Shown here piece by piece: positions 31,300 through 33,810 of a stretch of 64,000 nucleotides of DNA (its first letter is position 1; every line of letters begins with the position of its first letter). The translations under genes were made by a program, and so were the position numbers. The DNA lies in the NCBI RefSeq assembly GCF_003258515.1, contig NZ_QGEH01000002.1:310001-374000 (forward strand), written 5' to 3'. The notes beneath the pieces were generated by a model. The model was given only the letters and a program-made list of their open reading frames with translations, did no database searches and was not told where the DNA came from. This DNA comes from Marinobacter bohaiensis (GTDB lineage: Bacteria > Pseudomonadota > Gammaproteobacteria > Pseudomonadales > Oleiphilaceae).

Positions 31300-31536
31300 T
31301 CAGGCCCGGCGGGATCCACTCCGCGCGGCCAGCCACTCGATCACATCCCCCGCTGTGTTCAGCGTCCAGAAGGTCACCAGAGCCATCAGCCCGGCACCCA
31401 CGGCGGTAAAGGCCATATCGGCGCCGACGATGCGGCTTTCCGCCAGGATAAAATAGGCCGCCAGGGCCAGGACCAGGATGGCTTCAACGACGATGTGCGC
31501 TTTCAGGTTCAAGCGTGTGGTTGTGTCGTCGGACAT
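31300..31536 (-). CDS. Small two-helix membrane protein, unknown function
   Basis: A 78-residue protein with two predicted membrane helices (IVVEAILVLALAAYFILA and GADMAFTAVGAGLMALVTFWTLN) and a basic C-terminus. The start at 31534-31536 (MSDDTTTRLNLKAH) is preferred over a longer reading to 31614, which would run through AT-rich intergenic DNA. No family recognised. Confidence 0.6.
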   Translation of the reverse strand: MSDDTTTRLNLKAHIVVEAILVLALAAYFILAESRIVGADMAFTAVGAGLMALVTFWTLNTAGDVIEWLAARSGSRRA

Positions 31537-31703
31537 GATGATTTCGGTTTCACCTCGCAATTCGGATGTCGTTGGATGAATCAGCCACGGGACGTGACCG
31601 ATTTTAGTAGGCAACTAATTATCTCGAAGAACGGGCAACGGGGCTGTACGAAAATCCCTGTACGCACTAGCCGAAGCAGGCGGCTGGCGCCGGTAAAAGA
31701 CGG

Positions 31704-31736: not shown

Positions 31737-32163
31737 GCAAAAAAGGAGAGATTCATCGTGCCAACCCATCGTAGGTTATGCGGGCAGATGAAATGCACAA
31801 CGTAAACACGTGACTCAGGAATTATGACGCCTGTACGTTCCTTGATCTGTAGGGGATTGCCGCAAACCACGCCAGAGCCCGGTTCCCGGGTCTTCGGCTG
31901 TTCACCGGCAACGCGCCTGTTGCAAAGTTTTCGGCAACGGATAGACTGACAGTGAAAGGCATTCCGGCAGACAGTCCGATGGGTGGATAGCCCGACGGAC
32001 ATTCCGATAAGCAGTTGGATAAACAGCCGGAGTGAATCGGCCCTGACCCGCATCGCAACGGCGACGCATCGGGCCGGCATCGACAGACGAACAAACGCAC
32101 AGACGAGAGCAACGCTGACGTGATCGCCCACAAACGAGCCCAGTCTGCATAACCGCTGAATTC

Positions 32164-32238
32164 CCGGTCGGGCGATTCGCGGTGCGAATCTTCCGGCGGC
32201 CAGAAAACCCGGAAGCGTCACAGGTTCCGGGTTTTTTT
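32164..32238 (+). ncRNA. Candidate small RNA or leader ending in intrinsic terminator
   Basis: Hairpin GATTCGC-GGT-GCGAATC (32174-32190) within an outer CCGG pair is followed by terminator AAAACCCGGAA / TTCCGGGTTTT (32204-32214 and 32225-32235) with a seven-T tract. CTTCCGG at 32190-32196 can instead pair with CCGGAAG at 32209-32215, which would break the terminator, so switching is possible. No protein gene lies directly upstream, and the promoter is not obvious. Confidence 0.4.
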
Positions 32239-32417
32239 ATGGACGGAGCGCAGCAGGCCAGGCTCACAAACGGCGATACACAGCGTTGCCGACGCATTGA
32301 AACGAGGATGGGAGTCCGTTTTGACGGCCACCGTACGACAGATTAACCGAAAGACCGCAGGTCCGGTTGCGCACTCGCGCCCGGCGCACCTGCGTTCCCT
32401 CGTTATGCGTATCGATT

Positions 32418-32507
32418 AACGGCTTCCCCCAAACCCGGAAGCCGTTGGGCGACCGGGCAGAGAGTCTCTCTATAAACCCCGGTCACCCTGATCGGGGTTT
32501 ATTTTTT
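32418..32507 (+). promoter_or_regulatory. Attenuator-like leader upstream of the 89-residue gene
   Basis: Three ordered elements. A perfect 10-bp hairpin AACGGCTTCC / GGAAGCCGTT (32418-32427, 32437-32446). Then GGGCGACCGGG at 32447-32457, which can pair with CCCGGTCACCC at 32478-32488 (10 of 11 bases). Then a terminator, ATAAACCCCG (32472-32481) with CGGGGTTTAT (32493-32502), and a T-run ending at 32507. The second pairing uses the left arm of the terminator, so it would act as an antiterminator. A TTGACG at 32321-32326 is a possible -35. No known riboswitch class was recognised. Confidence 0.55.
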
Positions 32508-32537
32508 GCACGCGGACAGAGCAAAAAGGAGAGCACC

Positions 32538-32807
32538 ATGAAAAGACATCACAACCGCCCCGGCCCCCAACACAAGGCGCCCCACAACGGGCCGCTGCGC
32601 CGCCCGGACAAGCTGCCGCTGCTCGACGCCATCTGCAAGAAGCTCAACCAACGCGTCAACCTCGACAGCGAGCAGAGTGTGCTGGGCCTGTACGAGCGCG
32701 GCTGGATCTTTAACGGCGTCATTGCCACGATGGGCAACGCCGAGGCCCGCTACGTGCGCGCCCTGGCCACCAGACACAATTCCTGGATCGCGCGTCAGGT
32801 CGCCTAG
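32538..32807 (+). CDS. Small basic protein, unknown function, behind a structured leader
   Basis: An 89-residue protein with a very basic, His/Pro/Arg-rich N-terminus (MKRHHNRPGPQHKAPHNGP) and a more ordered C-terminal half (DAICKKLNQRVNLDSEQSVLGLYERGWIFNGVIATM). The ribosome-binding site AAAAGGAGAG is strong. The start lies 30 bases after a T-rich terminator in a probable attenuator, so expression is likely controlled by transcript read-through. The basic tail suggests nucleic-acid or ribosome contact, but no family is recognised. Confidence 0.7.
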   Translation: MKRHHNRPGPQHKAPHNGPLRRPDKLPLLDAICKKLNQRVNLDSEQSVLGLYERGWIFNGVIATMGNAEARYVRALATRHNSWIARQVA

Positions 32808-33282: not shown

Positions 33283-33810
33283 CTACTCGTTGGAGGTTCG
33301 CCGGGGAATCACCAATGGGGTGGGTTGCGCGGCGCGCTCGTCGTCGGGCGGCACCGCATCCGCTCGGTTTGATGGCGCCTCGGCGCCCGCCAGCAGGTTA
33401 CTGATGGAAATGGCGGTGGTGTAGAGCGAGATGGCCACGATCAGTAACACCGGCTGCAGGAACGCCACGAAACCGGGCACCTTGCCACCGCCGACGATGC
33501 TGAGGATCAGGATAATCGCCGGGCCCATCACCAGGAACAGGGTCAGGGCAATGAAGAAGACGATGCGCTCCTTGTGACGCCCCAGGTCCCGGTTCATCAC
33601 CAGCCCCAGCACAAACTTGCCGATCGCCAGGCCCGCCAGGATGGCGGCGGCGATGCTCAGGTCCGGGCGCAACAGGACCTCGGCGATGGCGCCATCCCAC
33701 ATCCGCTGCATCACAATCACCAGGAAGGGAAACAGGACGAACAGCACGTCGGCGTAAGTCCCGAACAGGGTGTTCAGCGACGGTGTCTCGTTATGCGACT
33801 TGTGATCCAC
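33283..33810 (-). CDS. Membrane protein of unknown function in kinase/regulator cluster
   Basis: A 175-residue protein with four predicted membrane helices (VLFVLFPFLVIVMQRMW; LSIAAAILAGLAIGKFVLGLV; RIVFFIALTLFLVMGPAIILILSIV; AFLQPVLLIVAISLYTTAISI) and a hydrophilic, Pro-rich C-terminal tail. No family recognised. It lies 34 bp upstream of the response regulator and 109 bp downstream of the hybrid kinase, all on the minus strand, so a shared operon and a role in the same signalling route are likely. Confidence 0.7.
   Translation of the reverse strand: MDHKSHNETPSLNTLFGTYADVLFVLFPFLVIVMQRMWDGAIAEVLLRPDLSIAAAILAGLAIGKFVLGLVMNRDLGRHKERIVFFIALTLFLVMGPAIILILSIVGGGKVPGFVAFLQPVLLIVAISLYTTAISISNLLAGAEAPSNRADAVPPDDERAAQPTPLVIPRRTSNE

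Follow-up and report, generated by a model that had tools for sequence, protein, structure and literature searches.

A Predicted Tandem uORF-Controlled Transcription Attenuator Upstream of an Orphan Small Gene in Marinobacter bohaiensis

Introduction

Attenuators of the trp/his type are ribosome mediated and carry a leader peptide with a run of codons for the regulatory amino acid, and in the leader peptides tnaC and erm, stalling of the ribosome turns the gene on. In this study, we examined a leader in a 64,000-nucleotide (nt) stretch of Marinobacter bohaiensis (contig NZ_QGEH01000002.1, positions 310,001 to 374,000, forward strand; here called the window, to which all coordinates refer) that precedes a gene for an 89-residue protein. 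This leader is probably, though by no means certainly, a transcription attenuator that senses the ribosome through upstream open reading frames (uORFs) and is present in tandem in this genome, with translation keeping the gene off. It resembles the trp/his attenuators in its short open reading frame (ORF), its chained, mutually exclusive pairings and the intrinsic terminator before the gene, but it lacks a run of four or more identical residues and the stop codon of its ORF abuts the first pairing segment. Since it has five segments, its default state would be inverted relative to the trp/his type. As in tnaC and erm, a ribosome at or near the leader stop would decide the fate of the transcript; stalling means "on" in those systems, however, unlike in the reading favored here, and the C termini of the uORFs described below differ between clades.

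Other described systems share further traits. In Sinorhizobium meliloti, uORF translation is proposed to hold the orphan small gene duf1127_1 off, with an increase when translation is impaired, and the attenuator is Rho dependent with C-rich codons early in the uORF (PMC12218461, in the available portions of the paper, whose Discussion also describes tnaC). The common trait is a uORF that keeps an orphan small gene off, a direction that is inferred for the window leader, whereas the terminators are intrinsic here. The uORF of Escherichia coli toiL-topAI senses several translation stresses through alternative RNA folds (PMC12121999, available portions); the window leader has the same combination of a uORF and alternative folds but is set apart by the intrinsic terminators within it. 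In Salmonella mgtCBR, one long leader holds two short ORFs and tandem attenuators, as here, while the gene and the sequences differ (PMC3641672, available portions). As far as these portions go, the S. meliloti duf1127 uORF, toiL and the tandem mgtCBR attenuators appear nearest in spirit to the window leader. The combination of a five-segment chain abutting a stop codon, a tandem form and an orphan target was not met in the literature searched. No leader-peptide attenuator of Marinobacter was found in that literature either, which covers few subscription journals, so that absence from print is unproven, and within the same coverage the sole match for uORFs in Marinobacter concerned dinoflagellate cultures.

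Results

A switch-like RNA precedes the gene for the 89-residue protein and is conserved among Marinobacter. An earlier note on this DNA had described a hairpin, an antiterminator and a terminator, and all three were read from the sequence at the same positions on the plus strand. Hairpin 1 (pairing 1:2, 32418 to 32446) is formed by the arms AACGGCTTCC (32418 to 32427) and GGAAGCCGTT (32437 to 32446), which pair at 10 of 10 positions. Segment 3, the left arm of the antiterminator (GGGCGACCGGG, 32447 to 32457), pairs at 10 of 11 positions with CCCGGTCACCC (32478 to 32488), and this partner lies within the intrinsic terminator formed by segments 4 and 5 and the T-run (32472 to 32507). The terminator stem has 10 bp (32472 to 32481 with 32493 to 32502; a terminator scan reports 14 pairs and a loop of 3), its T-run covers 32502 to 32507, and the Shine-Dalgarno sequence AGGAGAG of the 89-residue ORF (32527 to 32533) follows about 20 nt past it. 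The CCGGG core of segment 3 is also complementary to CCCGG in segment 2, and this pairing 2:3 is present in the RNAalifold consensus. Folding of 32348 to 32540 gave -83.8 kcal/mol compared to a mean of -62.9 for shuffled sequences (z = -4.5), a value attained by none of 200 shuffles. This downstream unit is here named attenuator 2.

The leader set comprised 110 loci with 88 distinct leaders, nearly all from Marinobacter; many species were present twice, from two collections, and counts are therefore given for distinct sequences. An alignment of attenuator 2 (49 rows out of 84 distinct leaders, with the degenerate leader L105 excluded and L032 at a shifted position) showed that complementarity is kept, with 94.7% of cells paired in hairpin 1, 89.1% in the antiterminator and 90.9% in the terminator, where four of nine pairs changed on both sides. 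This supports the proposal that the two folds exclude each other. The distance from the uORF stop to the ATG of the gene is 109 to 236 nt (median, 123). The covariation score exceeded 500 of 500 shuffles both for hairpin plus antiterminator and for the terminator, although kinship alone can beat shuffles without any structure and several helix cores are invariant; covariation is modest because the CCGGG and CCCGG cores hardly vary. Much of the helix conservation is plain sequence conservation, as alignments with shuffled columns paired at 91.1% in hairpin plus antiterminator compared to 91.8% observed. RNAalifold picked 2:3 plus the terminator for attenuator 2, with a covariation term of almost nil.

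The stop codon of a short ORF stands at the foot of hairpin 1. This leader ORF 2 (uORF2, 32321 to 32419, plus strand) has a predicted TTG start, 32 codons and a TAA stop at 32417 to 32419, ends in LRSLVMRID and is preceded by a Shine-Dalgarno-like GGGAG (32310 to 32314), with GGAG flagged ahead of the TTG. A stop codon was found at this place in 110 of 110 loci (TAA in 71, TGA in 11 and TAG in 6 of the 88 distinct leaders), with search patterns for hairpin 1 that themselves demanded a stop codon; two general patterns found 103 loci, and those for the remaining seven were made after inspection. All 88 distinct leaders have at least 21 open codons in the frame that terminates there; in the two remaining frames, 20 codons are attained in 53 and 12 leaders. 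Start codons were predicted by rule, and an ATG lies 24 to 36 codons before the stop in 86 of 88 leaders (most commonly 29), the exceptions being the window and L105, which has none.

In 62 ungapped uORFs from leaders of other species (256 pairs), the ratio of nonsynonymous to synonymous differences (pN/pS) was 0.56 in frame (bootstrap, 0.52 to 0.66) versus 1.16 and 0.78 in the other frames, and for the last ten codons it was 0.37 (0.28 to 0.49) versus 1.70 and 0.75. The C termini vary by clade, as in LSIVMPTP and VRAMVKDI. A codon run for a regulatory amino acid, as in the trp/his type, was not detected: the longest run of identical residues in 83 distinct uORF2 peptides was one in 24, two in 48 and three in 11, and none had four or more. 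Taken together, uORF2 and its coding signature qualify as the putative leader ORF of a uORF/leader-peptide attenuator, and the position of its stop next to hairpin 1, shared by all 88 distinct leaders, points toward control by the ribosome. The earlier note had proposed a riboswitch or a protein-controlled attenuator; the attenuator part stands on the conserved exclusive folds, whereas for the controller the uORF favors the ribosome.

Furthermore, that note overlooked both uORF2, the probable controller, and an upstream copy at 32120 to 32238, which in the clade of the window seems to be another attenuator built from five segments in the same way. Leader ORF 1 (32120 to 32152, plus strand; found by eye) would encode MIAHKRAQSA from a predicted GTG start, with ten codons and a TAA stop. 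By eye, the window and five of five same-genus relatives all have exactly ten codons from GTG to a stop, TAA or TGA, just ahead of segment 1. All pairings of attenuator 1 lie on the plus strand. Pairing 1:2 (32152 to 32183; arms 32152 to 32165 and 32170 to 32183) appears in the fold made before segment 5, and across eight leaders every cell of its main helix is paired (100%), three of the pairs having changed on both sides, while an inner 3-bp helix is 79.2% paired. The competing pairing 2:3 (32167 to 32197) joins GATTCGC (32174 to 32180) to GCGAATC (32184 to 32190) in the masked fold described below and is extended by 32167 to 32172 with 32192 to 32197. The antiterminator 3:4 (32190 to 32215; CTTCCGG, 32190 to 32196, with CCGGAAG, 32209 to 32215) is 94.6% paired, with zero pairs changed on both sides, and the intrinsic terminator 4:5 (32206 to 32238, T-run 32232 to 32238) occurs in all eight leaders. 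Their RNAalifold consensus is 2:3 plus the terminator, with 5 of 26 pairs changed on both sides. Eight chosen sequences make this conservation a support, short of proof: they comprise the window, the five relatives, Tamilnaduibacter (L043) and one further genus (L123), the last selected because a second terminator was already visible there. In many other Marinobacter, the promoter motif lies directly before uORF2 and leaves no room for a second attenuator. Both attenuators thus contain, as read from their sequences, a predicted conserved antiterminator that excludes an intrinsic terminator. In L043, attenuator 2 retains pairing 3:4 as GGCUCCGGG/CCCGGGGCC (by eye) and may act differently.

The earlier statement that the leader fits no known class agrees with Rfam 15, for which the window had zero matches at the gathering score. 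A permissive threshold yielded seven weak matches, all under the cut-off, the best being anti-hemB (24.7 bits, with the cut-off at 49.5; E = 0.0018, calculated for the short stretch that was searched).

A covariance model built on 31 of 48 leaders was scored on 150 of 3634 candidates in the window's own genome and found a single strong copy (E = 4e-17, the next hit being at 0.011), in keeping with a gene-specific leader. Of the 163 genomes searched in the family, 126 matched at E ≤ 0.01; seven of them matched only weakly and 119 lay below 1e-12, including G369, which has two equal strong hits. Two loci within one M. mobilis genome, L083 (NZ_FNNE01000010) and L087 (NZ_FNNE01000004), have identical leader sequences; gene and leader may have been duplicated there and in G369. 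At three loci in other genera (L124, L125 and L126), the protein is kept next to a leader of unlike sequence with a similar layout of a uORF and chained hairpins, which suggests, by eye, that the layout is retained while the leader sequence turns over.

A sigma-70 promoter is predicted at 31920 to 31947 on the plus strand (TTGCAA, 16 nt, TAGACT; 8 of 12 consensus bases) from a conserved motif, TTG(C/A)(A/T)(A/T), 16 nt, TA(C/G/T)ACT. If used, it would give a leader of about 580 nt. In 75 of 110 loci, the motif stands within the 300 nt that precede the ATG, always with a spacing of 16 although 15 to 18 were permitted, and it lies farther upstream in seven of the eight two-attenuator leaders. 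Among the 88 distinct 280-nt upstream regions, 49 contain it, compared to a mean of 0.02 after base shuffling. A simple sigma-70 consensus scan returned zero sites, so that the predicted promoter is unlisted as well. TTGACG at 32321, earlier suggested as a -35 box, is not supported, since it coincides with the likely TTG ACG start of uORF2.

The 89-residue protein (32538 to 32807, plus strand, ATG at 32538) has a basic N terminus and is predicted to form a small helical domain (AlphaFold2; mean predicted local distance difference test [pLDDT] score of 70.4, with residues 1 to 17 under 50). Its C-terminal part is well conserved in an alignment of 50 of 84 rows. Of 97 genomes, 38 gave a match, among them the own genome and one with only 39% matches; a contig search confirmed 90 loci, of which the best 80 were kept. 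Profile searches matched 15 of 293 genomes order-wide (own included; two outside the family) and 2 of 274 class-wide, one being the own genome. Searches with the protein against Pfam (E up to 10), NCBIfam and PDB sequences returned no match, and PHROGs (one at E = 0.29), Foldseek (best E = 5.4) and VIA-align (one row, Z = 2.0) gave nothing usable. DUF1127 was considered as its identity and rejected on the Pfam result. Distant homologues L117 and L118 (at the places of L122 and L121, respectively), L119, L120 and L143 form a small family with a YERGW-like motif, and the first four of these distinct loci (L117, L118, L119 and L120) show 33 to 40% identity. In L119, a terminator lies roughly 230 nt upstream of the gene.

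Among the nearest named relatives of the window genome are M. mangrovi (L031) and M. halodurans (L033), whose proteins are 84% and 81% identical to that of the window. Gene order is the same at the four loci checked, with queE- and queC-like ORFs, an exonuclease-like ORF and minus-strand ORFs beyond the 89-residue gene, the names reflecting likeness to window proteins. A response regulator is listed at two of the four; in the other two, an antisense ORF was picked there instead. Two small minus-strand ORFs of the window (33283 to 33810 and 31300 to 31614) look membrane-like by eye and matched nothing in Pfam with E up to 0.1.

Discussion

The layout suggests how translation could set the fate of the transcript. 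In each copy, a short ORF ends with its stop codon directly against segment 1 of five, and both attenuators would form the pairing chain 1:2, 2:3, 3:4 and 4:5. If the segment after the stop is free, 1:2 and 3:4 would form, segment 4 would be kept from the terminator and transcription would read through. The ribosome footprint extends about 10 nt beyond the stop codon; a ribosome at the uORF stop would thus cover segment 1, making 2:3 possible, so that the terminator 4:5 could form and transcription would end. Normal uORF translation would therefore keep the gene off. The gene would be switched on when translation fails, be it because ribosomes are too few or inhibited or because they are held farther upstream within the uORF. 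In this model, the ribosome would be the sensor, leader ORF 1 would be translated and both copies would act in series.

Folding was compared with and without masking, in which bases from the uORF stop onward (13 nt for attenuator 1) are barred from pairing to mimic a ribosome. In attenuator 1 before segment 5 is made, seven of eight leaders fold into 1:2 plus 3:4 when segment 1 is free, and in the same seven 3:4 yields to 2:3 when masked. Attenuator 2 of the window, folded at 25°C with the transcript ending at segment 5, adopts 1:2 plus 3:4 when free and 2:3 plus 4:5 when masked. At 37°C with six U added, the terminator rises strongly under the mask in L003 and L004 of the same genus. The full transcript of L126 changes from antiterminator to terminator when masked, and masking abolishes the antiterminator of L124 before segment 5.

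A number of results weigh against this mechanism. In L123, 2:3 forms whether masked or free. Once segment 5 is included, attenuator 1 ends as the terminator, masked or free, under almost all settings, so that read-through would have to be kinetic. In the 25°C test, which left out four leaders, the antiterminator is kept under the mask in four of six same-genus leaders. At equilibrium (82 leaders, L014 being left out; 37°C, six extra U), masking reduces the probability of terminator 2 in 28 leaders by over 0.2 and increases it in two, with smaller changes in the rest; over six settings it falls in 8 to 29 leaders and rises in 2 to 8. With six U, terminator 2 of the window forms in both states of this equilibrium folding. 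This happens because segment 2 can pair with segment 5. L126 forms the antiterminator in both states before segment 5, the complete transcript of L124 forms the terminator in both, and L125, of the same genus as L126, has the antiterminator before and the terminator after segment 5, masked or not. On the same side stand the TTG start of uORF2 in the window, the absence of the promoter motif from 39 of the 88 distinct 280-nt upstream regions, the lack of a recognizable terminator in attenuator 2 of L043 and the degenerate leader of L105 (both by eye), and the most distant homologues, which by eye have no such leader adjoining the gene. Equilibrium folding thus leaves the direction of the switch contested, as the tests disagree; we infer, as the fairly probable direction, that translated means off.

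The switch might also work in the opposite direction, which we regard as a serious but rather unlikely alternative: a nascent peptide would stall the ribosome at the uORF stop, and segment 2, once freed, would pair with segment 5, so that the antiterminator is held and the gene is on. The drop of terminator 2 in 28 of 82 masked leaders against a rise in two is what such a switch predicts, and the last ten codons of uORF2 are the most constrained, with the endings VRAMVKDI and ARAMVKDI recurring in 11 and 9 of the 88 distinct leaders. The pairing 2:5 on which it depends is, however, paired in 82.6% of cells with covariation within the range of shuffles (51 of 500 attain the score), the uORF C termini are unlike between clades, seven of eight leaders give the contrary result for attenuator 1 folded before segment 5, and L003 and L004, as well as the window at 25°C, switch toward the terminator under the mask.

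Explanations that leave the uORF incidental fare worse. A metabolite riboswitch, or autoregulation by the 89-residue protein, would fit the basic N terminus, the strong RNA conservation and the single strong copy in the own genome, but appears improbable given the stop at hairpin 1 in all 88 leaders, the coding signature and the lack of an Rfam class at the gathering score; the differing leader sequence in other genera that keep the protein also argues against a fixed binding site. Even less credible is a small RNA (sRNA) acting in trans, made of hairpin and terminator, with the gene reached through read-through only. Sub-cut-off matches to sRNA families (anti-hemB, 24.7 of 49.5 bits; a toxic sRNA, 21.1 of 50) and a C-rich loop speak for it, whereas neither the kept spacing of leader and gene nor the conserved antiterminator is needed by an sRNA.

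A uORF-controlled attenuator at this gene would be a ribosome-sensing leader not described before, which spans the genus, uses intrinsic terminators and occurs here in tandem. More tentatively, and with the odds leaning against it, the two in-series five-segment attenuators of inverted logic may represent a genus-wide gauge of translational capacity, in single form in most species, that drives a translation-stress protein, small, highly conserved and without a known family. The role of the 89-residue protein in translation stress is a guess, drawn from the control by its leader rather than from the protein itself. Tying this orphan, very conserved protein to the translation state would provide a direct handle on its function.
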